A stretch of DNA of 64,000 nt from a virus. Both the position numbers and the translations under genes were made by a program. The notes beneath the pieces are model-generated. The model was not told the DNA's origin, searched no databases, and was given only the letters and a program-made list of their open reading frames with translations. Numbering within the stretch: position 1 is the stretch's first letter; every line of letters begins with the position of its first letter. Positions 6,980 through 46,702 of the stretch are shown in pieces. The DNA lies in IMG/VR virus record IMGVR_UViG_3300037261_000082, positions 1 through 64,000 of that record; one strand, 5' to 3'.

Positions 6980-6983
6980 GCAC

Positions 6984-7601
6984 ATGACTGTAAACGTCCA
7001 AGCACCCTTCGGTTTTCTCCAGATTGGCACTGCCTCTGGGCCACCGAACTTTGCCGAGAATCATAATCCACCTTATCGGATTGCGTCGGGCTATGGCACC
7101 GCCATTTATTTTGGCGACGCCGTACGCATGAACGTTTCCGGCCCTACTGGCTATATTGAGCAGTGGGCTAATGGTGATGGTGGTACTGCTACTAAGATTC
7201 TAGTTGGCATCTTCGTTGGTTGCAGCTACTTCTCAACGGCACGAGGCTACAACGTCGAAAGTCGTTACTGGCCTGGTTCCGATGCTACTGGCGACGTTCG
7301 CGCTTATGTTGTGGACGACCCAAATAGTCAATGGAAGATACAGGCGGGCATTGGCTCAGCCATCACCCAGACCTCAATTGGTGCTTGTGCTGATATTGTA
7401 GCTACTCCGCTGGGCAGTACTGTGACGGGTCAGTCCGGCATGTGCCTTTCAACGCCAACCACAACTGTTACGCTTCCGTTCAAGGTGGTGAACGTCATCA
7501 CCTCTCCGCCAGGTGCGCCGGGCACGGATCTCACGGCAGCCTACAACAACGTCATCGTGGCGTTTAACAACCAGCAATATAAAGCCCTCCTAGGAGTCTA
7601 A
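6984..7601 (+). CDS. Capsid-associated structural protein, copy 2
   Basis: Paralogue of the preceding gene (205 residues), with the same block order: 'APFGFLQIG', 'IYFGDAVRM', 'KILVGIFVGCSYF', 'YWPG', and the same C-terminus 'YKALLGV'. Divergence is spread through the whole length, so the duplication is not recent. The two copies may occupy different sites in the capsid, for example different decoration positions. The shared C-terminal codons (here CCTAGGAG) again provide the ribosome-binding site for the following major capsid gene. Confidence 0.78.
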   Translation: MTVNVQAPFGFLQIGTASGPPNFAENHNPPYRIASGYGTAIYFGDAVRMNVSGPTGYIEQWANGDGGTATKILVGIFVGCSYFSTARGYNVESRYWPGSDATGDVRAYVVDDPNSQWKIQAGIGSAITQTSIGACADIVATPLGSTVTGQSGMCLSTPTTTVTLPFKVVNVITSPPGAPGTDLTAAYNNVIVAFNNQQYKALLGV

Positions 7602-7604
7602 GCC

Positions 7605-8531
7605 ATGGCGATCAACGTCGCAGCCATCCGTGACCTTCTTCTGCCTGGCCTCCGGGGTGTCACGGGCGAATATAAGCAGTGGCCAGCTATCTGGCCAAAA
7701 CTCTTCGACCAGGGCAAGTCAGAAATGGCCCAGGAGCGCACCGCTAGTATGCGCTTCCTGCCACTGGCTCAACTGAAAACCGATGGTGGTCAGACCGCCT
7801 TCGACAACAACTCCGGTGAAGCCTTCGTCTATAACCAGTTGCATACTGGTATTGGCCTGGGCTATGGTATCACCCGTAATACGATTGCCGACAACCTGTA
7901 CAAGGCTCAGTTCCGGCCATCCAATCTTGGCCTGCAACGCAGCTTTGCCCAGACGAAGGAGATCTACGCGGCGGCAGTGTTCAACTCGGCTACCACTTAT
8001 GACACGACAGTGGGTGGTGATGGAGTTGCCCTGCTTAGCGCATCGCATCCCCTCCCGGCTGGTGGCTCTGGCCCGGCGACCTGGGCCAATACCCCCGGTA
8101 CGCAAGTGGACCTTAACGAGTCGTCTCTGCTTAACGGCATGATTAGCATCAAGACTGGCATGTACGACAATGCTGGGCTGCGCATGATGGCCACGGGCAA
8201 GACCCTCGTAATCCACCCGAACAACGAGCCTGTTGCGCTCCGGCTCCTGCGTGCTGAGTTGCGTCCGGGCACCGCGATGAACGACCCGAACGTGATCCCC
8301 ACCGTAGCGGGCGGCGTAACGGACTACGTCGAGGACGTGTTCTTTACCTCAGCCTTCCCCTGGTACATCAAGACCGACCAGCCCGGCATGCTCTATCTTG
8401 AACGTGAACCGTTTGAGATTGATATGCAGGTGGACTTCACCACGGACAACCTGTTGGTGAAGGCGTGGGAGAGGTACTCCTTCAATTATAACGATCCCAG
8501 GGCTTTATGGGGATCCTCACCGACCTCATAA
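7605..8531 (+). CDS. Major capsid protein
   Basis: Protein of 308 residues. Its size, its position after scaffold and auxiliary capsid genes, and its sequence pattern fit an HK97-fold major capsid subunit of the Mu gpT-like type. The N-terminal part has 'LPGLRGVTGEYKQWPAIW'. A central part reads like the A-domain ('GKTLVIHPNNEP', 'LRLLRAELRPG'), and the end 'KAWERYSFNYNDPRALWGS' is typical of a capsid C-terminus. It assembles the head shell around the DNA. The neat block of codons and the strong AGGAG site suggest high expression. Confidence 0.86.
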   Translation: MAINVAAIRDLLLPGLRGVTGEYKQWPAIWPKLFDQGKSEMAQERTASMRFLPLAQLKTDGGQTAFDNNSGEAFVYNQLHTGIGLGYGITRNTIADNLYKAQFRPSNLGLQRSFAQTKEIYAAAVFNSATTYDTTVGGDGVALLSASHPLPAGGSGPATWANTPGTQVDLNESSLLNGMISIKTGMYDNAGLRMMATGKTLVIHPNNEPVALRLLRAELRPGTAMNDPNVIPTVAGGVTDYVEDVFFTSAFPWYIKTDQPGMLYLEREPFEIDMQVDFTTDNLLVKAWERYSFNYNDPRALWGSSPTS

Positions 8532-8533
8532 CA

Positions 8534-8590
8534 CTCCTAGTCTTTCATCTTAGAGTATGTTATAGTTACTAGGATGAAAGATCTAAGGAG
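8534..8590 (+). promoter_or_regulatory. Hairpin sequestering the ribosome-binding site of the endonuclease gene
   Basis: Inverted repeat between the capsid gene and the HNH/endonuclease VII gene. TCTTTCATC (8541-8549) pairs perfectly with GATGAAAGA (8573-8581). CTCCTAG (8534-8540) extends the stem with TCTAAGGAG (8582-8590) through two single-base bulges. The outer 3' arm is the AAGGAG ribosome-binding site for the ATG at 8600. Transcripts reading through from the capsid gene would hide the site. The 23-nt loop contains TATGTTATAG, a -10-like sequence. Confidence 0.6.
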
Positions 8591-8599
8591 AAGGAATTG

Positions 8600-9727
8600 A
8601 TGGAACAAGAAGTTGCAAGTCCGAAAAAGAAGCAGTCGCCGACCAACGTTCGGTCCGCTGAAGTGTTGGCGATTGCTCACTCACGTGTTCTTGAGTTGTT
8701 TACTTACGCTCCCCAAAGTGGCAAACTTCTGTGGAAGATAAAAATTGCGCGTAAGGTTGTGCCCGGAACTGTAGCAGGACAGCAGAATTCTGACGGGTAC
8801 TGGTACGTTGGGTTTGACGGCAAACGGTTGCCCCTACACCATGTGATTTGGTTCTATCATTATGGTTCTTGGCCTACTGAGTACCTTGGCTTTAAGAATG
8901 GTAATTACGACGATACCCATGTAGAAAATTTGAAGTTATTAACAGCTTCAGATAAGCAGAAAATTGAAGCCCTTCAACACTTTGGTTTGAGCGCCGAACA
9001 GAAAGCTATTAAGTACAATCCTAAGCATAAGTACTGGCGTGTTCGGTTTAAGGGTGTGAAGCTTGGCAAGTTTTACACCTATGAGGCTGCGAAAGAGGTT
9101 TATGATAAAGCTCTTAGTGGGGAACTTGACTTAGCTCATCAAGCTGAAGTCAATTCTAAGATGGCGCTTTTGCGGTTGCGTACAAGCTGGCGCATGGTGC
9201 TTAAAGCTGGACCGCATGGTTGGAAATCTTTTGCACATTTTGTTGAGACGGTTAAGGACCGTCCCGGTAAGCTTACTAAGCTCCGTCCTAAGGATTTGAA
9301 TACTCTCATTGGGCCTAATAACTTTGAGTGGGAAACTTTAACTGTTGATGAAGCCAAGGCTCGCTACCAAAGTCAAAGTACGGAAGCTTACGAAGCTTCC
9401 CGTGTTAATTGGGTAAGCCGTAAGTTTGGTGTTTCTACTGAATGGTACGATGACACGCTTAAAGCACAAGGTGGTGTTTGCGCTATTTGTGCCAAACCAG
9501 AAACTGCTGTTCGGTTAGGAAAACTTCTTCCTCTTAGTGTAGATCATGATCACGTAACCGGGAAGGTTCGAGGCCTCCTTTGTACCTCTTGTAACATCGG
9601 AATTGGTGCTTTACAGGATGATCCTACTATTATGCGTACTGCTACTAATTATGTTGAACGCTGGCGTGCAGAACATGTAGCACCTTTGCCCGAAAATGTT
9701 GTTTCTCTTAAAGACCATAAAGCTTAG
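8600..9727 (+). CDS. HNH / endonuclease VII fusion homing endonuclease
   Basis: Protein of 375 residues. An N-terminal HNH_3-like region (about 30-125) has 'GYWYVGFDGKRLPLHHVIW', but its second half is degenerate ('GFKNGNYDDTHVENL'). An AP2-like 'WRVRFKGVKLGKFYTYEAA' segment follows (about 145-170). The C-terminus (about 290-345) is a recombination endonuclease VII domain: CAIC zinc pair, 'VDHDHVTGKVRGLLC', CTSC pair and 'LQDD'. Endonuclease VII enzymes nick branched or specific DNA. Free-standing genes of this kind spread by cutting phages that lack them. It is wedged between capsid and beta-helix genes. ATG at 8600 is preferred to TTG at 8597. Confidence 0.85.
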   Translation: MEQEVASPKKKQSPTNVRSAEVLAIAHSRVLELFTYAPQSGKLLWKIKIARKVVPGTVAGQQNSDGYWYVGFDGKRLPLHHVIWFYHYGSWPTEYLGFKNGNYDDTHVENLKLLTASDKQKIEALQHFGLSAEQKAIKYNPKHKYWRVRFKGVKLGKFYTYEAAKEVYDKALSGELDLAHQAEVNSKMALLRLRTSWRMVLKAGPHGWKSFAHFVETVKDRPGKLTKLRPKDLNTLIGPNNFEWETLTVDEAKARYQSQSTEAYEASRVNWVSRKFGVSTEWYDDTLKAQGGVCAICAKPETAVRLGKLLPLSVDHDHVTGKVRGLLCTSCNIGIGALQDDPTIMRTATNYVERWRAEHVAPLPENVVSLKDHKA

Positions 9728-9786
9728 CCTGGCTTGACCGGCGTAAAGCATCAACGCACTGCTCCTCCTCGCGTGTTGCTCAAACT

Positions 9787-9819
9787 CCCAGAGGGACTAA
9801 TCCTCCTTCTGGGTCTTTT
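9787..9819 (+). terminator. Rho-independent terminator
   Basis: CCCAGA (9787-9792) pairs with TCTGGG (9808-9813). The stem continues inward through GG/CC pairs with a one-base bulge, and TCTTTT follows. It lies after the endonuclease gene and would end the capsid transcript. Confidence 0.65.
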
Positions 9820-9868
9820 CCCGAGGACTAGCGACGGGTAGCTCGCTGTCTAACAAAGGATCACGTAG

Positions 9869-10840
9869 ATGACTACGCCCGGTTTTAACAACCCCGCATA
9901 TCTAGTTGGTCAATTCGGAATGCCGTTGTATGGCATTTCCGGATTGCCGCCGTTTACTGGTAACTACTTCTGGGTCGACGAGACCAACGGGAGTGATGGT
10001 AATACGGGTGGTCCTACTGACGCCTTCAAGACGCTGACCCAGGCGCTGTCCCGGTGTACGTCCGGTAATAGCGACGTCATTTTCATGACCGGCTCAGTGC
10101 ATACTGCGACAACTATCGCTTGGAACCTGAACAAGACCCATCTTATTGGTCTGTCACCGCCGTCTCAGAATAGCCGGGCGCGTATCGCAATTACGAATAC
10201 GGCCTCGACGACAGCGGTTACTCCGTTGGTCAATGTCACGGCATCAGGCTGCATCTTTCAGAACATCGAAGTGTTCAACGGGGTCAACGCTAACTCGGCT
10301 CAGGTTGCCTGGCTAGAAGCGGGTGGCCAGAACTTCTACCAGAACTGCAATTTCATTGGCACAGGCCATCTTACTGCCGCTGCGCATGCCGGTAATCGGG
10401 CACTCTCTGTTGCCAGTGATGAGAACTTGTTCAAGGAATGCACGATTGGTGGTGACACCATTTTGCGGGCCACGGGTAATAATGCTACGATGGACACTAT
10501 TGTCAATCCAACCAGTGGTTTGGGCGCGGCGCGCAACATCTTCCGAGATTGTGCCTTCCAGGCTTGGACGAGCAATGCTGCCGACCTTCATGTGCTGGTT
10601 GCGGCTGGCACTATCGACAGGTATCTCCTGTTCCATCGCTGCACCTTCCTGAATGCAATCAACTCAACGGGTACGGCTATGACCGTAGGCTTCACAGTCA
10701 ATGCCTCTGCGGGCGGTTCTGTGCTGCTGCAAGAGTGTGCCTCTGTTGGGGCTACCGTTTATGCCACGACTGGGCCTATCTATGTACAAGGTTCTGTGCC
10801 AACTGGTGCGACCTCTGGTCTTGCGGTTGCGGCTACCTAA
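9869..10840 (+). CDS. Right-handed beta-helix virion protein
   Basis: Protein of 323 residues with the features of a pectate-lyase-like parallel beta-helix. The N-terminal 'YFWVDETNGSDGNTGGPTDAFKTLTQAL' region is the usual cap before a helix, followed by repeated short strands with Asn, Cys and Phe ladders ('CIFQNIEVFNG', 'FYQNCNFIG', 'LFKECTIGG', 'IFRDCAFQA'). Such proteins serve as phage tailspikes or head fibres. It begins a new transcription segment just after a terminator and lies in the head/neck region, so a head-fibre or decoration role is as likely as a tailspike. No catalytic residues could be assigned. Confidence 0.75.
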   Translation: MTTPGFNNPAYLVGQFGMPLYGISGLPPFTGNYFWVDETNGSDGNTGGPTDAFKTLTQALSRCTSGNSDVIFMTGSVHTATTIAWNLNKTHLIGLSPPSQNSRARIAITNTASTTAVTPLVNVTASGCIFQNIEVFNGVNANSAQVAWLEAGGQNFYQNCNFIGTGHLTAAAHAGNRALSVASDENLFKECTIGGDTILRATGNNATMDTIVNPTSGLGAARNIFRDCAFQAWTSNAADLHVLVAAGTIDRYLLFHRCTFLNAINSTGTAMTVGFTVNASAGGSVLLQECASVGATVYATTGPIYVQGSVPTGATSGLAVAAT

Positions 10841-11559: not shown

Positions 11560-12216
11560 ATGCGGCCAATTGTTGTCAAGGTCGGCCCTCTAGCCGCTGC
11601 CTCACCCAATAACATTGTTACGGTACAGGCCACTCCAGCGGTTGGAGCCATTCTTCCGTTGACTGCAGGAGCCGCTGCTGGCACTATCCCAGACACAGCA
11701 CGCCGTGTCCTAATAACGTCAACTGGCAACGATAGTGGCACTACAATTACTGTTTCCGGAACAGACTGGAACAATTCGCTAATAAGCGAAAATGTTACAG
11801 GTATAAATACAACTGCGTACACGGTATACGATTACAAGACGGTTACCAGTATTGTAATTCTTTCGGCTGCCGGTGCTAACACCGTTGGCAATATTACTGT
11901 TGGTACGAACGGAGTAGCGTCAAGTCGTCCAGTTTTCCTTGATACTTTTGCTATGCCGCAGACGTCAATCCAGGTCTCGGTGTCAGGAACAATCAACTAC
12001 ACGGTTCGGCAGACACTGGACAATCCAAACTCGCCAAACAATCCTGTTCTTTATTCTGCAGTTACCTGGTTGAACCACCCCGATAGCAACCTTGTTGCAG
12101 CTGCAGGGAATGTGCAGGGGAATTATGCTTATGTGCCTTCAATGGTACAACTTTTGATCAATTCAAATACTAACCCCGCCTACGCTACCATGACGCTTAT
12201 TCAAGCGGATGCCTAA
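11560..12216 (+). CDS. Beta-rich virion protein
   Basis: Protein of 218 residues, rich in Thr, Val, Asn and Ala, with alternating beta-strand character throughout and no membrane segment. It resembles neck or head-tail joining proteins in general style but no family is recognised. Its TAATG end overlaps the small repeat protein that follows. AAGGA inside the previous gene's end serves its ATG. Confidence 0.68.
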   Translation: MRPIVVKVGPLAAASPNNIVTVQATPAVGAILPLTAGAAAGTIPDTARRVLITSTGNDSGTTITVSGTDWNNSLISENVTGINTTAYTVYDYKTVTSIVILSAAGANTVGNITVGTNGVASSRPVFLDTFAMPQTSIQVSVSGTINYTVRQTLDNPNSPNNPVLYSAVTWLNHPDSNLVAAAGNVQGNYAYVPSMVQLLINSNTNPAYATMTLIQADA

Positions 12217-12428
12217 TGCCGGGCTTAATTGAAGACACCACTGGTCTTTACTATGGGCAAGGACTTAGCTTTGAACCTAGCTTAGGTGGCGCTGGTTTAA
12301 CTAATACATCAACAATTGATACTGTTCTGTTTACGGGGGCAGGCAACCTAGTTGCAGCCACAAAACTTCTGGTAGCTGCAAGGGCTACTTTCGGGGGTAG
12401 TGGTTCTTTCTCCGTGCATGCTTCCTAA
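12216..12428 (+). CDS. Small F-x-G-x-G repeat protein
   Basis: Protein of 70 residues. The C-terminal half has two units ('VLFTGAGNLVAATKLLVAA', 'ATFGGSGSFSVHAS') of the same 20-21-residue repeat that fills the C-terminus of the protein at 20010 and the protein at 21891. The start overlaps the preceding stop (TAATG). It may be a small subunit carrying the same beta module as the fibre proteins. Confidence 0.66.
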   Translation: MPGLIEDTTGLYYGQGLSFEPSLGGAGLTNTSTIDTVLFTGAGNLVAATKLLVAARATFGGSGSFSVHAS

Positions 12429-12437: not shown

Positions 12438-13115
12438 ATGCCAACTTCCAATACTTTCTCCTTCAATCCTGCTATTGGAACTCTAACGCTCAATGCTTTT
12501 GCGCGTTGCGGTGTGCGACGTACTGAGCTTACCCCGCAGCACATGAGTGATGCATTTCTTGAGGCAAATTTTCTTCAAGGCGATTGGGCAGCGGATGGGA
12601 TCATCTGGTGGACTGTAGAGCGTGTAGATCAACCTTTGACGGCTGGTGCACCTACTTATGGGTTACCCACTAACACAATAACGATCTTAGATTTATATAT
12701 TACGGCAAATGGTCAAAACCGTTTGATTATGCCTTTCTCTCGTACGGACTATGCTAGTTTGGCTGAGCCATTACAGCAAGGGTTCCCAACTAGCTTTTGG
12801 TTTGACCGGGCACTGATACCTACTGTTACATTGTGGCCTGTGCCGGATAACAACACGACGTATTCAATGTCCTATTACGTTTATACCCAACCTGAAGATG
12901 CTTTGTTGCGGGCAGGCGGTCAGGCAGCTATTCCTTACTGGTGGTTAAATGCGTACGTGGCTGACCTATCCCATCGTCTTGCGCGGATTTATGCGCCTGC
13001 CCTAGAAGCTGCACGTAAAATGGATCGTGATGAAGCTTATCAACGGGCATGCAAACAAACTGAGCCGAGTCCACTTTTCGTAACGCCTGGACTTTCTGGC
13101 TATTTCAGAGCGTGA
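12438..13115 (+). CDS. Head-tail adaptor / neck protein
   Basis: Protein of 225 residues resembling gp4-type connector proteins of short-tailed phages. The N-terminal helices ('LTLNAFARCGV', 'EANFLQGDWAADGIIWW') are followed by beta strands with 'YGLPTNTITILDLYI' and the pattern 'PTSFWFDRALIPTVTLWPVP', then 'TYSMSYYVYTQPEDAL' and a C-terminal helical stretch. Such proteins join the portal to the tail. The gene follows head genes and precedes the sugar cassette. The assignment rests on recalled family patterns. Confidence 0.74.
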   Translation: MPTSNTFSFNPAIGTLTLNAFARCGVRRTELTPQHMSDAFLEANFLQGDWAADGIIWWTVERVDQPLTAGAPTYGLPTNTITILDLYITANGQNRLIMPFSRTDYASLAEPLQQGFPTSFWFDRALIPTVTLWPVPDNNTTYSMSYYVYTQPEDALLRAGGQAAIPYWWLNAYVADLSHRLARIYAPALEAARKMDRDEAYQRACKQTEPSPLFVTPGLSGYFRA

Positions 13116-13172: not shown

Positions 13173-13193
13173 CAAAACCGTGGAGGAGTGTCT

Positions 13194-13427
13194 ATGTCTG
13201 AAGTTGAGCATGCTGTAAAAGTATTACCTATCGATAATGATCTTCAGCAAGAAGTTAAGAAACTGGAGGCTGAGGGTTGGGAGTTGATGCCTGGTATTCT
13301 GCCCGTGGCGGTCTACCACGTGGTTCGGATTAAGAACAAGCCCCAATTTGCTCAGGCTGCTGAAGGCAACATGGGTATTGACGACACCAAGGTAGGTATC
13401 CTTCGTGATGGCAAGTTGGTGAACTAG
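13194..13427 (+). CDS. Small hypothetical protein before the sugar cassette
   Basis: Protein of 77 residues. A helix followed by strands ('VKKLEAEGWELMPGILPVAVYHVVRIK') recalls the small DUF4177/DUF1737-type folds, but this is a weak resemblance. ATG at 13194 is chosen over GTG at 13188 because GGAGG (13182-13186) is then correctly spaced. It lies 2 nt before the glycosyltransferase gene and is probably co-translated with the cassette. Confidence 0.62.
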   Translation: MSEVEHAVKVLPIDNDLQQEVKKLEAEGWELMPGILPVAVYHVVRIKNKPQFAQAAEGNMGIDDTKVGILRDGKLVN

Positions 13428-13429
13428 CC

Positions 13430-14503
13430 GTGAGTATGGGGTGGGCTGCGATTTGTCGGCTGGGGGGTGTTGGTGATAATCTCATAGCAGCTTCAGTGCT
13501 GCGCCCGCTTAAACAACTTGGGTATAAGACAGAGGTAATTACTACCGAGAAGGAAACCCACACGGTCTTCCTTAACAACCCTTTCATTGATAAATTGTCA
13601 TTGAAGGGTGAGAAGGATATTCCTGGGGGTGCTGAATGGCAGAAGTGGTTTGCTGCTCGTGCCGGTGAGTACGAAGTCTTTGCCAATTTATCACATTCCT
13701 GTGAGTACCGTCACGCTTTATTTCCGGACTCAACTGCGTTCTGGTGGCCTTCAGAGTATCGCCGCAAGCTTTGCGCTGGGTCATACCTAGAAACTGTTCA
13801 TGATATTGTGGGTGTCCCGCATACGTTTGGGCCACTGTTCTTTCCTACCGAGGAAGAACAGGAACGTGCTGAACGTACCCGTGACGAACAAATAAAGGGT
13901 CGCTACATTGCCTGGGTAGTTTCTGGGTCACGCCTCGATAAAATTTACCCGTATGCGGCTATGGCTATCGGACGGCTTATTCGAGAGCTTAATGTTCCCG
14001 TGGTTATGATTGGGGTAGGAGCTAAGCAGTTTGAGATGGCTAAGCAGATGATGGAACATGTCAATCGTCAGAATGGCACGAAGGATATGCTTCATCTGGC
14101 GTTGTCTCCTGATAATGCTGATCCTGGTGGTAACCAGGATTGGCCCATTCGTCGTTCCCTTGCGCAGGCTATGGCAGCCGACTTGGTTATTACCCCTGAT
14201 ACGGGTGTGGCTTGGGCGGTAGCTATGGAGAACGTACCTAAGATGGTTATGGTCAGTCACGCCAGCGTTGAGAATATTACCAAGCATTGGGTCAACACAA
14301 TTACACTGCACGCGGACCCCAACAAGGTGCCTTGCTGGCCGTGCCACCGGTTACATAATGAGATTGCTACATGCGTGCCTAATAAGGATATGGGTCAGGC
14401 GGCGGCTTGCATTAGCGATATCTCAGTGCAGACTATCGTCGAGACTGCTGAGCGGCTTTGGAACAAGAATAATGTTATACCATTGAGAGAAGCGGCAGAG
14501 TAA
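13430..14503 (+). CDS. Glycosyltransferase family 9 (heptosyltransferase-like)
   Basis: Protein of 357 residues with the GT9/ADP-heptose:LPS heptosyltransferase layout. The N-terminal 'LGGVGDNLIAASVLRPLKQLG' matches the donor family's first Rossmann domain. A central 'IAWVVSGSRLDKIYP' follows, then 'ADLVITPDTGVAWAVAMENVPKMVM' matching the nucleotide-sugar-binding second domain, and a C-terminal 'CWPCHR' plus Cys cluster. These enzymes transfer heptose or related sugars to lipopolysaccharide core. Start GTG at 13430 or ATG at 13436. It is the first gene of a tightly packed sugar-processing cassette inside the virion genes. Confidence 0.83.
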   Translation: MSMGWAAICRLGGVGDNLIAASVLRPLKQLGYKTEVITTEKETHTVFLNNPFIDKLSLKGEKDIPGGAEWQKWFAARAGEYEVFANLSHSCEYRHALFPDSTAFWWPSEYRRKLCAGSYLETVHDIVGVPHTFGPLFFPTEEEQERAERTRDEQIKGRYIAWVVSGSRLDKIYPYAAMAIGRLIRELNVPVVMIGVGAKQFEMAKQMMEHVNRQNGTKDMLHLALSPDNADPGGNQDWPIRRSLAQAMAADLVITPDTGVAWAVAMENVPKMVMVSHASVENITKHWVNTITLHADPNKVPCWPCHRLHNEIATCVPNKDMGQAAACISDISVQTIVETAERLWNKNNVIPLREAAE

Positions 14504-14504
14504 G

Positions 14505-15260
14505 ATGTTAGCCAAGACTCCACCTATTGGTAGTTGTGCTCAGGACAGCATTTCAAGTATCAAACTTGAAATTGAGGACTGGCTTTACGCAGAAGTAGGT
14601 GGCGAAGTACAGAGTGGCCCATTTGAGGGAATGAAGCTTCCAAAGGAGAAAGCTTGGCGAGAGTCCTACCTGCCTCCTATGCTCTTGGGATGCTACGAGG
14701 AAGAACTTCATGGCGTACTTACTCAACAGATTGAACGACTGAAGAATTGGGAGCGTTTACCCAACGTAGTGGTTGTTGGTTGTGCAGAGGGTTATTACGC
14801 AGTGGGTCTTGCTCGAAGGTTACCAAAAGCTACTATCTATGCTCTGGATATTGATGCTATGGCGTTAGAAATAGCAGCAATAGCGGCTAAAGCCAACGGT
14901 GTCTCGCTGAAAATTGGTGCGCCGTTGAATGAAGTCTTTGCTGCTCCTAATCTTATTGTTATGGATTGCGAAGGGGCTGAGGTTGATTATCTAAACTTAG
15001 ATACTTTTCCTGCTTTGGCGGGTTCTTATATCATTCTTGAGGTACATAATCTACCAAACCAGAATACAGACGCTATAATTCTTGATCGGTTTCGAGGCAC
15101 TCATCGTATCGATATGATTATGGAAGGTCCGCGCAATCCTACCAATTATACGCAGCTTTGTGCCTTATCATCCACCTACCGTTGGATGGCGGTGTGTGAA
15201 GGTCGGCCTTGTCTTATGGCTTGGTACTCAATGACGCCCAGAGGGATGAGCGTCTCATGA
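14505..15260 (+). CDS. FkbM-like SAM-dependent methyltransferase
   Basis: Protein of 251 residues. The class I SAM-binding motif appears as 'VVVVGCAEGYYAVGLARRLP' with the acidic residue at the end of strand 2 ('IYALDIDAMAL'). The later 'VMDCEGAEVDYL' is the FkbM-type 'D-x-EGAE' motif. FkbM enzymes O-methylate sugars and polyketides. The ATG follows the previous stop by 1 nt, and its own stop overlaps the next ATG (ATGA), so it is part of the same translational unit. The substrate is unknown, probably a sugar. Confidence 0.8.
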   Translation: MLAKTPPIGSCAQDSISSIKLEIEDWLYAEVGGEVQSGPFEGMKLPKEKAWRESYLPPMLLGCYEEELHGVLTQQIERLKNWERLPNVVVVGCAEGYYAVGLARRLPKATIYALDIDAMALEIAAIAAKANGVSLKIGAPLNEVFAAPNLIVMDCEGAEVDYLNLDTFPALAGSYIILEVHNLPNQNTDAIILDRFRGTHRIDMIMEGPRNPTNYTQLCALSSTYRWMAVCEGRPCLMAWYSMTPRGMSVS

Positions 15261-16030
15261 AGATTGGAATTATTGGAGTAGGGGTCGTTGGTGGTACGTT
15301 GGCTTATGGCTTTAATCGTATTGGTCACGAAGTCATTAAACACGACCTTAAATTGGCAACTAAGATTGACGTTGTTTTAGGTACACTTCTTACTTTCGTG
15401 TGTGTACCAACACTGCAGGCTGTTAACGGCTTGTGTGATACTTCTTCTGTAGAAGAAGTTGTGGCCTCCTTAGCCGAAATTGGTTATGAGGGTGTTGTTG
15501 TTATTAAGTCAACGGTTACTCCTGGAACGACGGATAGGTTAGCAAAAGAGTTTCCTTTCCTACGCTTAGCGTTCTGCCCAGAATTCTTGCGGGAGAAGTC
15601 AACTTACAGTGATTTTGTTGAAAATCATGATGTGTGTATTATTGGAACTCTATATGACAAGGACTTTGAGTTGATCAAAGCTGCCCACGAACCTTTGCCC
15701 AAGGCGTACGAACTTTTGACCCCAATTGAGGCTGAATTGGCTAAGTACTTCTCAAATACATTCAATGCAGCGCGAATCATATTTGCTAATCAGTTCTTTG
15801 AGGTTTGTAAGGCTGTGGGCGCTAACTATACAGCGGTCAAGAATGCAGTGTCTAAGCGTACGAATATTGGGGGTTATTACCTGGATTGTAATGAGAACTT
15901 CCGTGCATTTGGTGGTTCGTGTTTGCCGAAGGATACTTCGGCTCTTGCTACTTTTGTAAAGGAGAAAGGGATAGACGCTCCTATGTTTGAATGGCTGCTG
16001 GCTGCAAACGAGAGGATCAAAAGCAAATGA
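15257..16030 (+). CDS. Short UDP-glucose/GDP-mannose dehydrogenase
   Basis: Protein of 257 residues in the nucleotide-sugar 6-dehydrogenase family, which oxidises UDP-glucose-like substrates to uronic acids with NAD. The NAD motif is 'GIIGVGVVGG' at residues 4-13. 'KSTVTPGTTD' and 'AFCPEFLREKS' are family blocks. The catalytic cysteine lies in 'FGGSCLPKDTSAL' near residue 227. Usual members exceed 400 residues; the C-terminal UDP-binding domain is missing here, and the gene ends shortly after the catalytic loop. ATG at 15257 overlaps the previous stop; earlier in-frame starts would overlap more. Confidence 0.82.
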   Translation: MKIGIIGVGVVGGTLAYGFNRIGHEVIKHDLKLATKIDVVLGTLLTFVCVPTLQAVNGLCDTSSVEEVVASLAEIGYEGVVVIKSTVTPGTTDRLAKEFPFLRLAFCPEFLREKSTYSDFVENHDVCIIGTLYDKDFELIKAAHEPLPKAYELLTPIEAELAKYFSNTFNAARIIFANQFFEVCKAVGANYTAVKNAVSKRTNIGGYYLDCNENFRAFGGSCLPKDTSALATFVKEKGIDAPMFEWLLAANERIKSK

Positions 16031-16929
16031 TCCTGGTCACAGGGGGCATGGGTTTTATTGGCCGGGCTTTAGTCAAGGCACTTGTTGAGCGTGGTGAGAA
16101 GGTGCGGGTACTTGATAATGGCTGGCGGCACGGCCAAGGGCACAAGATGCCAAATGGCGTTGAATTCTTCAATGGTGATATTCGTGATAGTGCAACTGTC
16201 TTGCAGGCTGTGGCAGGTTGTGAAGAAGTGCATCATTTAGCAGCGATCAATGGTACGTCAAACTTCTACAAGTACCCTGGATTAGTGCTGGACGTTGCGG
16301 TTAAGGGCATGATTAACGTGCTCGACGCTTGCAAGGTGCATGGAGTTAAGACCCTAATGCTGGCATCCTCGTCAGAGGTCTACCAGACGGCAGTGGTTAT
16401 CCCAACACCAGAGGACGTCCCGCTGGTTATTCCAGATCCGTACAACCCGCGCTATAGCTACGCTGCTGGGAAGATTATCAGCGAAATGATGTTGCTGCAT
16501 TCCGCGCGTAATATCGAACGTGCTATTATCATGCGTCCCCATAATATCTACGGTCCCAATATGGGGAATGAGCATGTCATACCCCGACTGGCTAGGGACC
16601 CAAGTAACTTTACGGATGGTCAGCAGACTCGTGCATTTTGTTATATTGACGATGCAATAGACGGTTGGATGATAGCTCGTGAGCATGGTGAACACCGTCA
16701 GGTTTATAATCTAGGTACAGACCACGAGATTCGAGTAGTTGACCTTGCTTATCGTATTGTGGCATTGGCTGGGTTTACTCCAGTAGTTTCTGCCCCTGCT
16801 CCGGCGGATGGTGGTACAGAACGAAGGTGCCCTGATATATCGAAGTTGAGGGCGCTGGGGTACCAGCCCAAAGTTAGCCTTGAAGAGGGTTTAAGCAAAT
16901 CGATGGAGTGGTATCGTGCAGCTGCATAA
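16027..16929 (+). CDS. NAD-dependent sugar epimerase/dehydratase (extended SDR)
   Basis: Protein of 300 residues. 'ILVTGGMGFIGRALV' is the N-terminal NAD-binding glycine motif. 'SSSEVYQ' and 'YSYAAGKIISE' supply the catalytic Ser and Tyr-x3-Lys, and 'MRPHNIYGPNMG' is the usual substrate-binding block. This places it with UDP-glucose 4-epimerase-like and related dehydratases acting on nucleotide sugars. Exact chemistry cannot be read. ATGA overlap with the dehydrogenase and a 14-nt overlap with the next gene show a compact operon. Confidence 0.85.
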   Translation: MILVTGGMGFIGRALVKALVERGEKVRVLDNGWRHGQGHKMPNGVEFFNGDIRDSATVLQAVAGCEEVHHLAAINGTSNFYKYPGLVLDVAVKGMINVLDACKVHGVKTLMLASSSEVYQTAVVIPTPEDVPLVIPDPYNPRYSYAAGKIISEMMLLHSARNIERAIIMRPHNIYGPNMGNEHVIPRLARDPSNFTDGQQTRAFCYIDDAIDGWMIAREHGEHRQVYNLGTDHEIRVVDLAYRIVALAGFTPVVSAPAPADGGTERRCPDISKLRALGYQPKVSLEEGLSKSMEWYRAAA

Positions 16930-18139
16930 GTGTCAGAACTGTGACGAGGTAACGACTAAGATCATGTCGCTTGGCTATATGCCGCCGTGTAACGCAATGC
17001 CAAAGATTGGTGAACCCCGCCGGGCACAACGCTGGATACCAACTGATCTGATGTTGTGTCGTTCGTGCGACCTGGTACAGCTTGCGTACGTTGAAGCGCC
17101 AACTGATGTATTTCCAGCTGATTATCCCTACGTCAGCGGATCAACTAAGATACTGCACGATAACTTTGCAAATCTGGCAAAGGAGGCTCCAGCGATTGCT
17201 GGGATGAACTTAGGAGACTTGGTGGTTGACATAGGGTCCAATGACGGAACACTGCTCTCGAAGTTCGAGGGTTATCGGCAACTTGGCATTGAGCCAACGG
17301 ATACTGCAAACATTGCGATCTCGAATCACGTCCCAACAATCCAACAATACTTCTCTGTTGGACTTGCCAAGCGTGTGGTGAGCGATTATGGAGCGGTTAA
17401 GCTTGTCACTTGCGCTAATTGTTTTGCCCATATTCCGGATGTTCACGCGGTAGTAGACGGCGTGCTTGAGTTGCTGGCACCTGACGGTGTATTTGTTACT
17501 GAGTCCCATTATTTAATGGGGCTGATTGAGCGATTACAGTACGATACGATTTATCAAGAACACCTGCGTTATTACTCACTCAACTCGCTAACTAACATTC
17601 TGAAGCGGCATGGACTTAACGTATTTCATGCCAAGCATATCCCAAGCCACGGCGGTTCGATCCGCGTCTACGCTTCGCGAGAAGCGCGTACTGTGTCAGC
17701 ATCCGCTAAGAACCTGGCAGCCAGTGAGTTGCGCGCTGATGCATTGCACGCTCGTTTGCAAACATTTGCGAGAGATGTACAGGCATCGCGTTTTGCGCTG
17801 CTTGAACGCATAGCCAATGCTAAGCGGCGTGGCCACCAAGTTGTTGGTCTTTCAGCACCGTCGCGTGGTGGTACTGTGGTGAGCTACTGTGGCCTTGACG
17901 AAACAATGATCGACTACGTCTGTGAGATTGTAGGCTCGCCAAAAATTGGCCGCTACATGCCGGGCACCGAGATTCCGGTAGTTGACGAGAGCAGGTTATT
18001 TACTGATCAACCCGATTACGCCATAATCTTCTCTTGGCATATTGCCGATGAGTTAATACCAAAGTTGCGAGCTAAAGGTTACAAAGGTGAATTCATTTTG
18101 CCATGCAATCGTGAGAGTGATTATGCTCAAGCTGCATAA
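16916..18139 (+). CDS. Sugar C-methyltransferase-type protein with zinc domain
   Basis: Protein of 407 residues in the family of NDP-sugar C-methyltransferases (putative zinc-binding N-terminus, central methyltransferase, C-terminal Rossmann domain). Cys pairs at 'KCQNC' (about 6-9) and 'LCRSC' (about 48-51) form the zinc site. 'LVVDIGSNDGTLL' is the SAM motif, 'YQEHLRYYSL' a family signature, and 'GLSAPSRGGTVVSYCGL' starts the C-terminal domain. Members methylate carbon atoms of keto-deoxy sugars. The GTG start overlaps the epimerase end. Another role in branched-sugar synthesis is possible. Confidence 0.84.
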   Translation: MQLHKCQNCDEVTTKIMSLGYMPPCNAMPKIGEPRRAQRWIPTDLMLCRSCDLVQLAYVEAPTDVFPADYPYVSGSTKILHDNFANLAKEAPAIAGMNLGDLVVDIGSNDGTLLSKFEGYRQLGIEPTDTANIAISNHVPTIQQYFSVGLAKRVVSDYGAVKLVTCANCFAHIPDVHAVVDGVLELLAPDGVFVTESHYLMGLIERLQYDTIYQEHLRYYSLNSLTNILKRHGLNVFHAKHIPSHGGSIRVYASREARTVSASAKNLAASELRADALHARLQTFARDVQASRFALLERIANAKRRGHQVVGLSAPSRGGTVVSYCGLDETMIDYVCEIVGSPKIGRYMPGTEIPVVDESRLFTDQPDYAIIFSWHIADELIPKLRAKGYKGEFILPCNRESDYAQAA

Positions 18140-18887
18140 CCTAACCTTGGTGATGATTGAGACTCGCGAGCATGAACTTGCCGCGTTAGCGGTTGAGGAT
18201 TGTCTCAAGGTTGCAGAGTTTGGTGACGTGTTGATCCTGACTGATAGGTCAACTGCGTTCCCTCGTATTGGCACTCGTATTGAAGAAGTTCCTGACTGGT
18301 CAGACAAACTCGGTTGGGCACGTTCAATGTGGTACGACGTGCCTCCATTGGTAAAGACCTCCCATATTCTAGCCATCCAATGGGACAGCTGGATTTGGGA
18401 CCCATCAGTGTGGCGTGATGAGTTCCTAAATTATGATTTTTGCGGAGCGCCGTGGTGGTATAAGGACGGCAAGAATGTTGGTAATAGTGGCTTCTGTCTT
18501 AAGAGCACGCGACTAGCCCGGTACCTTGCTAAGAACCGCGACAAGTTTCCGTGTGATTCCAGTATTGAGGATGATTTGTTGTGTCGTAAGTATCGTTCTA
18601 AGTTGGAGGACGTTGGGTTTCGCTGGGCTCCTGAGAAGGTAGCTTACGACTTCTCATTTGAGGGTTGTGGGGGTAATAAGCCCACAAAGCATTTCGGTTT
18701 TCACGCGGCCATGAATTTTGGACTTGTTCTTGATCATGACCGGCTGCTTGAACGGGCAAGGCTCATGTTCAAGTCGCTTTACATTCGAGATAGTTATATT
18801 GCGAAAGCTTTCTGTGAGAAGAATCCTGATGTTGTTAAAGAATTGTTAGATGAAGAAAACAGTCCTAAATTGAAGGAAGTGACCTAA
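18123..18887 (+). CDS. DUF5672-like glycosyltransferase-type protein
   Basis: Protein of 254 residues matching the DUF5672 pattern: 'LTLVMIETREHELAALAVED', then 'VLILTDRS', 'AIQWDSWIWDPSVW', 'FCGAPWWYKDG' with 'VGNSGFCLKST'. This family is distantly related to nucleotide-sugar glycosyltransferases; the 'WDSWI' acidic motif may bind metal. ATG at 18123 overlaps the methyltransferase end by 17 nt. It is the last gene of the sugar cassette and may attach the modified sugar to its acceptor. The function is inferred. Confidence 0.74.
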   Translation: MLKLHNLTLVMIETREHELAALAVEDCLKVAEFGDVLILTDRSTAFPRIGTRIEEVPDWSDKLGWARSMWYDVPPLVKTSHILAIQWDSWIWDPSVWRDEFLNYDFCGAPWWYKDGKNVGNSGFCLKSTRLARYLAKNRDKFPCDSSIEDDLLCRKYRSKLEDVGFRWAPEKVAYDFSFEGCGGNKPTKHFGFHAAMNFGLVLDHDRLLERARLMFKSLYIRDSYIAKAFCEKNPDVVKELLDEENSPKLKEVT

Positions 18888-18889
18888 CA

Positions 18890-19588
18890 ATGCAGTATTA
18901 CGTTTATGAGCATTGGAGGCCAGATACTGGATTGCCCTTTTATGTTGGGAAGGGGAAAGGTGGGAGGGTTAACTGTACTCAGCGGAACAAATACTACGTT
19001 CGCGTTGTTAATAAATTGAAGCGCAACAACCTAGAAATTGAAGTTCGTAAGGTTTTCTCTGGGCTAGACGAGGAAATGGCTTTCGCTCTTGAGAAGTCCC
19101 AAATTGCATATTGGCGTGCGCGGGGCATTGCGTTGACAAATGCAACGGATGGTGGTGAGGGTATTTCTGGGTATAGATTCTCTGACGCACAAAAACAACA
19201 TATGAGCAAAGTCATAAAGGATCTTCCCCCCGAAGTTTGGGCTGTGATTAAAGCAGCTGTTAGTAAGGCTCGAAAGAATCACACCCCTTCGGATGAGACT
19301 CGTAAGCTGATGAGCATTTCGCAAACTGGGCGGAAGCACCTTGAAGAAACAAAGCAGAAGATGCGTATTAAGGCTTTGGAGCGCGAAGCTATGAGGCGCG
19401 AGTTGGGACTTGTTCAGCAAGGGCATTTAGGATTTAAGCATAGTGCAGCTACAAAACAAGAGATGCGCCTTATTGCATTGGCAAGAGGAGAGGTCAGTGC
19501 CGCTACTAAAGAAAAACTGCGTGACGCGGTTAGTAAGCGTTCCCGTGATAGTCGCGGGCGGTTACTGCCTTTAAATAACCCCTCTTGA
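18890..19588 (+). CDS. GIY-YIG homing endonuclease with NUMOD3 motifs
   Basis: Protein of 232 residues. The N-terminal GIY-YIG nuclease domain (about 1-95) shows 'YYVYEHWRPDTGLPFYVGKG' with the downstream Arg and Glu. The C-terminal part has three NUMOD3-like DNA-binding repeats ('SDETRKLMSISQTGRKHLEE', 'KHSAATKQEMR', 'SAATKEKLRDAVS'). It resembles the Seg-type free-standing endonucleases that cut related phages lacking the gene. AAGGAAG lies in the tail of the previous gene. It separates the sugar cassette from the tail genes. Confidence 0.86.
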   Translation: MQYYVYEHWRPDTGLPFYVGKGKGGRVNCTQRNKYYVRVVNKLKRNNLEIEVRKVFSGLDEEMAFALEKSQIAYWRARGIALTNATDGGEGISGYRFSDAQKQHMSKVIKDLPPEVWAVIKAAVSKARKNHTPSDETRKLMSISQTGRKHLEETKQKMRIKALEREAMRRELGLVQQGHLGFKHSAATKQEMRLIALARGEVSAATKEKLRDAVSKRSRDSRGRLLPLNNPS

Positions 19589-19605
19589 ACTAAAAGGAAA
19601 ATATC

Positions 19606-20001
19606 ATGGCTAACATATCAACGTATCTTACCCGCGCGTACCTCGACTGGTGCTTGAATGGAGCTACTCCGTCGCGCCCTGGTGCGGTGTGGGCAGGCCT
19701 CGCAGCTGGTACCCCAACGTCAGTTTCTGGTTCAGAGATTGGCACGTTGACTGGCTATTCCCGTGTGACGGCCCTGTTTGGCGCTGCGGCTTCGCCTGCT
19801 GGATCAGCATCTAATACTGCGGCCATGACTTTTGGCCCGTTCTCCTCAACGGGTTCAATTCTTGGTCTGCAACTGTGGGATGGCTCGCCAGTGGCGTCGT
19901 CCGATATGCTCTGGTATGGGACGCTGCAAACCGCACGCACCATTCTGATCGGCGACTCATTGGTTGTTGCTGCTGGAGCGTTAACGATCACGCTCTCATA
20001 A
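19606..20001 (+). CDS. Virion (fibre/tail-associated) protein
   Basis: Protein of 131 residues. The pattern 'YLTRAYLDWCLNG...RPGAVWAGLAAGTP', then 'GYSRVTALFGAA' and 'TAAMTFGPFSSTGSILGLQLWD', is one I recall from small structural proteins encoded near phage fibres. It is beta-rich with a hydrophobic C-terminus. AAGGAA precedes the ATG. Probable fibre base or attachment component; exact role unknown. Confidence 0.72.
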   Translation: MANISTYLTRAYLDWCLNGATPSRPGAVWAGLAAGTPTSVSGSEIGTLTGYSRVTALFGAAASPAGSASNTAAMTFGPFSSTGSILGLQLWDGSPVASSDMLWYGTLQTARTILIGDSLVVAAGALTITLS

Positions 20002-20009
20002 GTCAAAAA

Positions 20010-21887
20010 ATGACGGTCGAAGTCAAAACCACTACAGGCGCTTCTACCTGGACCGTTCCTGCGGGCGTGACTTCTATACAAGTTGAGGCTATTGGCAATG
20101 GCGGCACGCCGACTATCGGCGGTGGCGCTGGTGGTGGTGCCTATGTGATGGTGGCGGCTATCCCTGTAACCCCTACCAACACAGTTTGGTTAAACATTGG
20201 TACGGCTGGGGGAACGACTCCCACTTGGTTAAATGTTGCAAGCAATGCTGCGCCAACATTAGTATCGCAAGGCGTTCTAGCCGACTACGGAAGAAATTCT
20301 GGGGGTTCAACAGGCGGCGCTGGCGGTGCTATTGCAAACTGTATTCCTACTTCCGTGGGAGGAGGCAATCTAGCGTATGCTGGAGGCACTGGTGGCGCTC
20401 GTGGAGCGTCTGGCAGTAATGGAGGTGGCGGCGGTGCTGCTGGCCCAGATGGAGCAGGACAAGTCGGTGGCGCGGGGGATGCTACTTCGGCTACTTCTGG
20501 CGGCGGAGGTGGCGGTGCAGATGGATCGTCAAGTACCGCAGGGCAAATTGGCCAAACTTTAGCTGGTGGTGCTGGTGGTCAAGGACCCGCCGGATCAGGC
20601 TCCGGTGCTGGCGCTACATCTGTGGCGACGGCCCAAGTTGGCACTGATGGCGGCGGGGGTGGCGGTGGATTTGTAACAACAAATCCTAATGGAGCCCAAG
20701 GCGGTACGCACACAATTACTGCGTGGGGATCGGGCTTCGGTCCAGGCGGTGGCGGGGGCGGTAAAGAAGGAGCGGCAAGCAATGCCGGGGGGTCCGGTGG
20801 TACTTACGGCGGTGGAGGTGGCGCTTACCTCACTTCTGTCGGCGGCCAAGGCATCATCGTTATTACTTATACTTCTAGTACGGCTTGGACGGGTTCATTT
20901 GTAGGTTCAGGCTCAGGGACTTTTACGGGAGGCGTACAAGCTTTATTAGTTGCTAGTACTTCTCTTTCGGGGGGAAGCAACTTAGCAGTTGATACTCAGG
21001 ACTTCTTAGCTGCTACAGCTACTTTTATCAGCGTTGGTAGCCTAAGTGCTACTACTAATGTTCTGGTAGCTGCTCAGACTAATTTTGTTGGTATTGGTAA
21101 TTTATCTGCAACTGCAAGTATTGTTAGTGCTACTATATTTGTTACAGCTGCTTTTGTTGGTACTGGTTCTCTAACTGTTATTACTGCAGCAACCTTACGA
21201 ACTGCTTCTGCCGCTTTTGTTGGTACTGGTTCTCTAACTGTTATTACTGCAGCAACCTTACGAACTGCGTCTGCCGCTTTTGTTGGTACAGGTCATCTAT
21301 CAATAAACACAAATGCCTTACTTGCTGGGTTGGCTGCCTTTCATGGGGTAAGCTCGCTAACTGCTAATACTAAATCTTTATTCGCTGCCATTATTGCTTT
21401 CGCGGGTACTGGAAAGCTAAGTGCCGCTGCTGTTCAAAACTCTCTTGCGGTTGTAGGTTTTGCTGGATTAGGTAATCTTTCAGCTACCCTTACGGCTATA
21501 TTCCCAATAGCATGTACCCTTAATGGTACAGGTGGATTACTAACAAGCGCCACGCTTTTGCAAGTTGGGTCTGCTGCTTTTGTGGGTGTGGGGAGTTTTG
21601 CAGTCCATGTAGGAGTAAATACAGCCATTCTCGCTGCCTTTGCAGGAGCAGGACAGTTGTCAGCTACAGCAGGCGTAATATACACTATTTTTGCGACGTT
21701 TAGTGGTGCAGGTAGTCTACTAGCCAATGTTCTTGATTTTCTGTTTAATGCCACGGCTACTTTCTCTGGGAGTAGCAAGATGTGTGCCCAAGCCATTGTT
21801 CGTTTAGGTCCAAAAGGTGTTAAAGTTAATCAATTTGTGTTTGGTTCTGGCACTGCTTTTAATCGTATTATTCAGGCTGCGAAGTAA
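20010..21887 (+). CDS. Glycine-rich tail fibre with beta-type tandem repeats
   Basis: Protein of 625 residues. Residues 1-40 form a small beta domain ('STWTVPAGVTSIQVEAIG') typical of glycine-rich phage fibre domains. Residues about 35-285 are extremely Gly-rich, with several GGGGGG-type stretches as in polyglycine-II adhesins. Residues about 300-610 hold roughly 13 repeats of 20-21 residues built on F-x-G-x-G-x-L-x-x. Two neighbouring repeats are nearly identical at DNA level (21151-21276). No ribosome-binding site is visible, so the gene is probably coupled to its neighbour. Likely host-recognition fibre. Confidence 0.78.
   Translation: MTVEVKTTTGASTWTVPAGVTSIQVEAIGNGGTPTIGGGAGGGAYVMVAAIPVTPTNTVWLNIGTAGGTTPTWLNVASNAAPTLVSQGVLADYGRNSGGSTGGAGGAIANCIPTSVGGGNLAYAGGTGGARGASGSNGGGGGAAGPDGAGQVGGAGDATSATSGGGGGGADGSSSTAGQIGQTLAGGAGGQGPAGSGSGAGATSVATAQVGTDGGGGGGGFVTTNPNGAQGGTHTITAWGSGFGPGGGGGGKEGAASNAGGSGGTYGGGGGAYLTSVGGQGIIVITYTSSTAWTGSFVGSGSGTFTGGVQALLVASTSLSGGSNLAVDTQDFLAATATFISVGSLSATTNVLVAAQTNFVGIGNLSATASIVSATIFVTAAFVGTGSLTVITAATLRTASAAFVGTGSLTVITAATLRTASAAFVGTGHLSINTNALLAGLAAFHGVSSLTANTKSLFAAIIAFAGTGKLSAAAVQNSLAVVGFAGLGNLSATLTAIFPIACTLNGTGGLLTSATLLQVGSAAFVGVGSFAVHVGVNTAILAAFAGAGQLSATAGVIYTIFATFSGAGSLLANVLDFLFNATATFSGSSKMCAQAIVRLGPKGVKVNQFVFGSGTAFNRIIQAAK
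21151..21276 (+). repeat. Tandem 63-bp repeat inside the fibre gene
   Basis: Two adjacent 63-bp copies (21151-21213 and 21214-21276) differ at one base, with the start of a diverged third copy after them. The unit encodes one 21-residue repeat (A-F-V-G-T-G-S-L type). Near identity next to more diverged copies points to recent unit duplication. Confidence 0.85.
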
Positions 21888-21890
21888 GTT

Positions 21891-22334
21891 ATGACAGTCC
21901 GGGCAGGATCATTTGTAAGTGTAGGCCAGAGTTCTCTTTCTGTTGCAGCTAATACAGCCTTAATAGCACAAACCGTTTTCTCTGGTACTGGTTCACTTTC
22001 TGCTAACGCTGCGCGACTCACAACCTTTGATCTATCAGAAGTATTTGCAGGCGTAGGTTCTCTTTCTGCTTCTGCACAGACATTTATCTACTTGAGTGAA
22101 AGATTTGCAGGTGCAGCTAGCCTTTCTGTTTATGCAACAATGAATTCGGTATCTATAGTGTTTATGGGGCAAGGAGGTCTTTCTGTTACAGATAGAGCAG
22201 TCTTATCTGCGTCAGCTAGTTTTGCAGGTAATAGTAAGATTTGTGTTTTTGCTAACGTGCTTCTTGCTACCCGTGGAGTTGTTCATAATGTTATGCGTCC
22301 CGGCTCCGGCCCAACCAATAATGTGATTGTATGA
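21891..22334 (+). CDS. Second F-x-G-x-G repeat protein
   Basis: Protein of 147 residues made of about six units of the repeat seen in the gene before it, for example 'FSGTGSLSANA', 'FAGVGSLSASA' and 'FAGAASLSVYA'. Both proteins end with a matching block ('FAGNSKICVFANV' here, 'FSGSSKMCAQAIV' before) followed by a similar short tail with a Gly-Ser-Gly motif. It looks like a duplicated, shortened relative of the fibre C-terminus. It could assemble with it or serve as an alternative fibre tip. Confidence 0.72.
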   Translation: MTVRAGSFVSVGQSSLSVAANTALIAQTVFSGTGSLSANAARLTTFDLSEVFAGVGSLSASAQTFIYLSERFAGAASLSVYATMNSVSIVFMGQGGLSVTDRAVLSASASFAGNSKICVFANVLLATRGVVHNVMRPGSGPTNNVIV

Positions 22335-23076: not shown

Positions 23077-23787
23077 ATGGCCCTAACCTACACAACTTTT
23101 GTAACCTCGTTGGCAAACCTTTTGGTCGTACCACCAACGGACCCAAATTTTGTGCTTGTGCTCCCCAACATTATTGATGATGCTGAACAGAGAATATATC
23201 GTGAACTTGATTTGCTCTCTACCATTGTACGTGACAATTCAGGGGTGCTAACGCCTAACAGTCGCAATTTTACTTTCCCCCAGCATTTTGTTGTAAGTGA
23301 ATCAATCAATGTATTTACCCCAGTAACGGTCAACACTTATCGCAATCAGTTAATAGCGGTCTCTCGTGAGTTCCTAGATGCTGTATACCCTGATGAAATA
23401 GCAGGAGGGTGTTGTGGTCCTGCTGTGCCAGAGTACTACGCTATGATTACGGATCAGACAATCATTGTGGGGCCAGCGCCTGATGCAGCTTACACAATGG
23501 AAGTTGTGGGTACAATTAGGCCAGCGCCACTTAGCAATGCAAATCAGACTACGTATTTGACATTGTACTTGCCAGATTTATTCTTTACGGCTGCCCTCGT
23601 CTTCGGTTACGGCTATTTGAAAGATTATGGTGCTAGTACTGATGATCCGAATGCACCTGCTAATTGGGCAGCACATTATAATGCACTGAAGCAGTCAGCT
23701 GACATTGAAGAGAATCGTAAAAAGTACGCATCTCAGGCTTGGACGCCCAAATCGCCTGCTCCGCTTGCCACTCCACCCCGCACCTAG
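23077..23787 (+). CDS. SU10-type adaptor protein
   Basis: Protein of 236 residues fitting the phage adaptor family known from SU10-like podoviruses. An N-terminal helix 'NIIDDAEQRIYRELDLLSTI', beta strands with 'EYYAMITDQTIIVGPAPDAAYTMEV', 'TYLTLYLPDLFFTAALVFGYGYLK', and a helical C-terminus match the recalled pattern. Adaptors bind under the portal and connect the tail nozzle. Together with the gene at 12438 this gives two neck-type proteins on either side of the sugar cassette. Confidence 0.74.
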   Translation: MALTYTTFVTSLANLLVVPPTDPNFVLVLPNIIDDAEQRIYRELDLLSTIVRDNSGVLTPNSRNFTFPQHFVVSESINVFTPVTVNTYRNQLIAVSREFLDAVYPDEIAGGCCGPAVPEYYAMITDQTIIVGPAPDAAYTMEVVGTIRPAPLSNANQTTYLTLYLPDLFFTAALVFGYGYLKDYGASTDDPNAPANWAAHYNALKQSADIEENRKKYASQAWTPKSPAPLATPPRT

Positions 23788-40664: not shown

Positions 40665-40676
40665 GTGGACTTTCTT

Positions 40677-46582: not shown

Positions 46583-46702
46583 TTAATGAAAGGCAATGAT
46601 GAGGGCTATGAATGCTAGGATAACACAACCAATTATCAAAACAGAGACTCCGTTAGCAGCCCGTTCTTGAGTTTCTCGGAACCAATTTATCAAATGTCTC
46701 AC
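46583..46702 (-). CDS. 39-residue single-span membrane protein
   Basis: Leftward short frame starting with GTG that overlaps the stop of the SbcC-like gene (GTGA). Residues about 20-38 are a hydrophobic helix ('VSVLIIGCVILAFIALIIAF'). It is the last gene of the leftward operon before the converging terminator. Function unknown. Confidence 0.5.
   Translation of the reverse strand: MRHLINWFRETQERAANGVSVLIIGCVILAFIALIIAFH

Follow-up and report, generated by a model that had tools for sequence, protein, structure and literature searches.

Why would a phage carry sugar-modifying enzymes among the genes for its own particle? The locus that raises this question lies in virus record IMGVR_UViG_3300037261_000082, of which we analysed a window comprising bases 1-64000 of 100,177. 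A first-pass annotation had described six enzyme open reading frames (ORFs), which we confirmed at 13430-18887; they are intact and tightly packed on the + strand, neighbouring frames overlapping slightly or lying a few bases apart. They encode a GT9-like glycosyltransferase, a weakly FkbM-like methyltransferase, a sugar dehydrogenase, an SDR enzyme, a sugar C-methyltransferase and a DUF5672 protein. From the genes present and their order, the folds predicted, the residues conserved and the pattern of co-occurrence, we favour, at somewhat better than even confidence, a module, specific to phages, for glycosylating the virion proteins encoded beside it; in this phage the sugar would be elaborated and perhaps C-methylated. 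The module most likely represents phage self-glycosylation of a known kind (PMC12363180) in a new form.

The genes found next to the two glycosyltransferases carry this argument. Our collection scans started from seed patterns and covered the collections partially, and all close homologues came from environmental contigs, mostly fragments. Viral contig scans with GT9, DUF5672 and a 131-residue protein encoded downstream gave overlapping sets of loci with a recurring backbone, consisting of a 79-residue gene, GT9, DUF5672, the 131-residue protein and a repeat protein, with the methyltransferase or other genes optional in between. The order GT9, DUF5672, 131-residue protein, repeat protein was found in loci that otherwise share no similar genes with this phage (L109, L112, L114, L116, L121, L135, L137 and L139). 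DUF5672 lay upstream of the 131-residue protein in 14 of 14 loci, two of which are near-identical to this phage and four of which form two more near-duplicate pairs. GT9 and the 131-residue protein were both lacking in the three DUF5672 loci that diverge most (36-46% identity); the 131-residue protein was present in all the others with sufficient downstream sequence. Because it matches Pfam Gp80, named for fibre I of podophage GP4, the 131-residue protein is a virion protein by family; it also matched the head protein family phrog_240.

The repeat protein is built of about a dozen 20-residue units with the consensus AxFxGxGSLSA. Across 18 such proteins, 171 successive motif intervals were exactly 20, and Ser/Thr was kept at two positions (58% and 63%). 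The protein was present in all 17 module contigs with sufficient downstream sequence. The 10 same-family loci devoid of the module (about six of them independent) lacked it, and among 778 long ORFs from unrelated viral loci there was no instance. For seven relatives without the module, the complete contig was free of GT9, DUF5672 and the repeat protein. Since the presence and absence of the repeat protein track the module, the transferases would act on a virion component; this is the main new evidence. The conserved core is thus GT9, DUF5672, the Gp80-type fibre protein and the repeat protein. In phages that otherwise differ in gene content, both glycosyltransferases adjoin this same pair of virion-type proteins, which supports the earlier preference for virion decoration more strongly than gene position does by itself. 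Among cultured phages, no homologue of GT9, the 131-residue protein or the repeat protein was found at 1e-5, although the BLAST low-complexity filter may mask the repeat protein. Copies of the FxGxGSL repeat also occur in two small proteins, at 12216-12428 and 21891-22334.

Neither transferase gave a match in a PDB sequence search even at E 1, and both were then placed by predicted fold. The GT9 AlphaFold model (predicted local distance difference test score, pLDDT, 81.8) had 3tov (a GT9 enzyme), WaaF, WaaC and TibC as its best PDB matches, with 3tov, 1psw and 2h1h as the top Foldseek matches at template-modelling (TM) scores of 0.5-0.6. The window protein by itself matched neither PF01075 nor any other Pfam family, but PF01075 matched 5 of 13 homologues (best E 6.2e-5). 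The GT9 label is therefore supported by the predicted fold and by these homologues. D16, K171, the D257-T258-G259 triplet and four cysteines (C302, C305, C315 and C327; CxxC-x9-C-x11-C) were invariant in the 13 sequences. These agree with the catalytic Asp of the N-lobe and the donor-binding Lys and DTG of the C-lobe in GT9 enzymes, and sequence order suggests that D16 and K171 are equivalent to Asp-110 and Lys-230 of TibC. TibC is a GT-B enzyme with a four-cysteine iron finger that heptosylates serines of a beta-helix adhesin (PMC4358343). The phage enzyme shares with TibC/AAH the GT-B fold, a repeat-built candidate substrate and four conserved cysteines, the last two spaced C-x11-C. In contrast to TibC/AAH, its model opens directly with the catalytic N-lobe, and a second transferase is always nearby. 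Because the N-terminal beta-barrel (~97 residues) is missing, we did not place it in the TibC/AAH family. Its cysteine spacing is 2-9-11, whereas that of TibC is 2-15-11 (339, 342, 358 and 370), and these cysteines are perhaps general to part of GT9.

PF18922 matched the DUF5672 protein, as annotated earlier, and all 17 of its homologues. Its model (pLDDT 86.5) gave GT6 and other GT-A enzymes as the best among the matches listed, at E ~1e-5 and a TM score of only ~0.47. The candidate for its DxD metal motif is QWDSW, with D100 invariant and the first Asp absent; the metal-independent GT6 enzyme 4ayl is among the fold matches. DUF5672 is thus predicted to be a second glycosyltransferase with a GT-A fold, and the presence of two transferases suggests at least two sugar transfers. 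Our literature search on DUF5672 found nothing relevant.

The structural matches also bear on a different explanation, in which GT9 and DUF5672 alter the lipopolysaccharide core or another surface glycan of the host and thereby block superinfection or readsorption. Linkage to fibre genes would follow from the need for a receptor-binding protein to suit its receptor. Two lipopolysaccharide core-building enzymes, WaaC and WaaF, are among the close structures, and a fibre-type gene adjoins the module. However, the repeat-built protein is linked as well as the fibre, domain searches recognised no membrane glycosyltransferase or flippase among the cassette genes, and the cassette sits within a structural gene block. 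We regard host-surface modification as unlikely.

A further explanation is that polysaccharide genes were recently captured from bacteria and serve no role specific to the phage. The nearest solved relatives of the SDR and the C-methyltransferase do belong to cellular sugar pathways. Against this, GT9 and DUF5672 each form a phage group with 52-75% identity over many contigs, the frames are intact with conserved catalytic residues, and a GT9 profile run against 84,980 prokaryote genomes, in a scan dependent on seed patterns, yielded no matches other than short or distant ones. Recent capture therefore seems to us very improbable.

The remaining four enzymes are less constant. The methyltransferase matches generic methyltransferase domains, so that part of its label stood, but the FkbM profile scored 17.1 bits against a cut-off of 37.7. 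Homologues of this gene occur in module loci L110, L112, L113, L114, L115, L116, L121, L134, L136, L137 and L138. The earlier annotation had treated the six enzymes as the cassette. The two transferases are the conserved part, and close matches to the SDR and C-methyltransferase came only from two near-identical contigs.

The sugar dehydrogenase proved to be a shortened form of the enzyme it had been named for. It begins at 15257 and comprises 258 residues with the NAD-binding and central domains (PF03721 and PF00984). T87, E110, K164, N168, C223, K226 and D227 are retained, and the catalytic residues are invariant among homologues. These features are common to UDP-glucose and GDP-mannose dehydrogenases, whereas the phage form lacks the C-terminal uridine diphosphate (UDP)-binding domain and part of the N-terminal domain. 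PF03720, which represents that C-terminal domain, was absent from the dehydrogenase and, as a separate gene, from eight viral records including that of this phage; it was present in 14 of 14 control genomes. All 37 representative homologues carried PF03721 and PF00984 alone, and in 78 viral loci (L028-L105) every ORF not truncated by its contig ended within ~60 residues of the catalytic region, in a scan whose family-specific seeds make it uninformative on full-length forms. Mini-dehydrogenases are a large viral family, often within large glycan gene clusters. Campylobacter phage CP220 has an annotated 256-residue dehydrogenase, and full-length forms occur in other phages.

An SDR gene directly follows the mini-dehydrogenase in L030, L032, L034 and L040 as well, making the two a recurrent gene pair, and C-methyltransferase homologues lie near a mini-dehydrogenase in L049 and L053. 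The SDR carries SSSEVY and YAAGK, and the Glu is typical of dehydratase and decarboxylase classes. UDP-glucuronate decarboxylases were among its best PDB matches, and no NCBIfam equivalog cut-off was met. Thus the enzyme is an SDR as proposed, but more likely of the decarboxylase/dehydratase class than specifically an epimerase. The C-methyltransferase was correctly named. D-mycarose 3-C-methyltransferase and TcaB9 are its closest relatives, with the same domain order (PF08421, PF13489 and PF08484) and near full-length alignment, although the phage gene lies in a virion gene block. Enzymes of the TylC3/TcaB9 type act on 4-keto sugars. A route from uronate to 4-keto pentose to C-methyl sugar is coherent but unproven; alternatively, a 4,6-dehydratase path would operate with the dehydrogenase working separately. 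One weak match of a methyltransferase stretch to a defence gene (mad2, E 4.5e-8, 63 residues) was the only indication of a defence role and was discounted.

These three genes could instead, perhaps together with the transferases, feed a sugar to hypermodified DNA. The precedent is Bacillus phage SP-15, for which a UDP-glucose dehydrogenase and glycosyltransferases have been proposed to act on a thymine derivative (PMC5977210). The genome does encode, outside the window, an amino-acid:DNA transferase, both parts of a 5-hydroxymethyldeoxyuridine (5-hmdU) DNA kinase and a thymidylate-synthase-like protein, and so shares with SP-15 a sugar dehydrogenase and glycosyltransferases alongside thymine modification genes. 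However, the SP-15 cluster was assigned to DNA, whereas the transferases here are linked to virion proteins. The hypermodification genes are also more than 48 kb from the cassette, and an amino-acid:DNA transferase implies an end product other than a sugar. We found neither HMUDK_hel nor ADDT in 20 other records, of which 13 carry the complete module, nor HMUDK_hel in 15 records with mini-dehydrogenases; many records in both sets are fragments. Because those 20 records lack the kinase and the amino-acid:DNA transferase, the core does not track DNA hypermodification, a comparison that the fragments limit. We consider a role in DNA modification quite improbable, though for the sugar-making trio taken alone it may apply.

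Comparison of related contigs defined the extent of the unit. In L119 (= L131), whose capsid protein is 93% identical, the adaptor, GT9, DUF5672, 131-residue and repeat proteins are present, and the FkbM-like gene, dehydrogenase, SDR, C-methyltransferase and endonuclease are missing; the sugar-making genes are additions here or were lost in L119. In L006 the adaptor is followed directly by a homologue of the gene at 22331, an empty arrangement, and in L004 one different gene lies between the two. Since these arrangements differ, we define 13188-22334 as a variable island. The 79-residue ORF is counted with the cassette because it is found upstream of GT9 in other contigs too. At the other end, the gene taken previously as the end of the cassette is indeed endonuclease-like, but it lies inside the unit, which continues to 21887 or 22334. 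A homologue with 46% identity is present at the same DUF5672/fibre junction in L130 and none is there in L119 and others, and we therefore treat it as an independent insert. Relatives carry the unit onward without it, which rules it out as a boundary. The DUF5672 gene probably starts at 18123, where its homologues begin. Base composition was not decisive (43% GC in the dehydrogenase and 46-50% in its neighbours). Homing-endonuclease-like or HNH genes are dispersed through the window, at 8597-9727, 18890-19588, 40665-41537 and 52442-53815.

Taken as virion glycosylation, the module might work as follows. GT9 would probably place the first sugar on Ser/Thr of the repeat protein and/or the Gp80-type fibre, the DUF5672 enzyme would add a further sugar and the FkbM-like methyltransferase may cap the glycan. 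The donor in this phage would be an unusual C-methylated sugar, made by the mini-dehydrogenase together with the SDR of decarboxylase/dehydratase type and the 3-C-methyltransferase. We infer the action on the fibre and repeat proteins, the identity of the sugar and the order of the steps; late expression is suggested solely by gene order and orientation. Mycobacteriophages Che8, Corndog and Myrna have been described as glycosylating their own virions (PMC12363180). Common to them and this phage are phage-encoded glycosyltransferases with the phage's own structural proteins as targets, here predicted. In this phage, the pair GT9 and DUF5672 is tied to a Gp80-type fibre together with a repeat protein, and the likeness is in the kind of system.

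Several points weigh against virion glycosylation. Co-occurrence alone does not establish the substrate, and the glycan itself is predicted, not observed. Besides the fragmentary state of the environmental contigs, several of the module-less loci are near-duplicates. Fibres beside surface-modifying enzymes fit a host-receptor cassette as well. As a set, the sugar-making trio occurs in this phage alone, and of the phages tested no other carries thymine hypermodification genes. Finally, a scan for sigma-70 promoters and terminators gave scores no better than those of shuffled sequence.

It is possible, and we suggest this tentatively, that the locus represents a protein-glycosylation system specific to phages and absent from the cultured ones searched. 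In it, a virion protein built of repeats would be decorated by a TibC-like GT9 and by DUF5672, a new GT-A family. Swappable sugar genes would diversify the system and include, in this phage, a C-methyltransferase and a minimal dehydrogenase working without a UDP-binding domain. If virion glycosylation is correct, the locus offers a testable enzyme-substrate pair in phages distant from mycobacteriophages, DUF5672 gains a glycosyltransferase role, and a widespread viral mini-dehydrogenase family without the nucleotide-holding domain is exposed. Exchange of sugar genes while the two transferases on either side stay fixed would point to diversifying selection on particle surfaces.

Table. Genes of the glycosylation island and thymine modification genes of the same phage. 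Positions are those of the window unless stated otherwise.
Feature	Position	Strand	Basis or remark
79-residue ORF	13188..13427	+	Homologues 41-61% identical upstream of GT9 in L108, L110, L112, L116, L131
GT9-like GT-B glycosyltransferase	13430..14503	+	Predicted fold; invariant residues in 13 homologues
S-adenosylmethionine (SAM) methyltransferase, weakly FkbM-like	14505..15260	+	PF05175 and PF13649 matches; optional module partner
Mini nucleotide-sugar dehydrogenase	15257..16030	+	PF03721 + PF00984, without PF03720
Extended SDR, UDP-glucuronate-decarboxylase / 4,6-dehydratase class	16027..16929	+	SSSEVY, YAAGK; PDB matches
Sugar 3-C-methyltransferase, TylC3/TcaB9 type	16916..18139	+	PF08421, PF13489, PF08484
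DUF5672, predicted GT-A-fold glycosyltransferase	18123..18887	+	PF18922; predicted model; mechanical ORF from 18087
Homing-endonuclease-like gene (NUMOD3)	18890..19588	+	Between DUF5672 and fibre gene
Gp80 / podophage GP4 fibre I-type virion protein, 131 residues, candidate acceptor	19606..20001	+	PF23140, E 3.1e-22
Repeat protein, main candidate acceptor	20010..21887	+	Glycine-rich N-terminal part and ~12 20-residue repeats
Short protein, five further copies of the 20-residue repeat	21891..22334	+	Repeat match
Thymine hypermodification genes	genome 64001-82500 (L157:3663-4775, 6498-9028, 9577-10650)		5-hmdU DNA kinase in two ORFs, one with HNH intein

The setting of the island is podovirus-like. 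SU10-type families are matched by the portal and by two adaptor proteins, at 12438-13115 and 23077-23787, which lie on either side of the island. The capsid protein shares 60% identity with its counterpart in an uncultured phage and 33-36% with those from phages of Roseobacter, Pelagibacter and Alcaligenes. Elsewhere in the window, a gene pair resembling the SbcC/SbcD nuclease lies on the minus strand at 46699-49550. L158 carries a NusG-like gene and a TnpB/OrfB-type gene (L158:865-1389 and L158:2029-3249).

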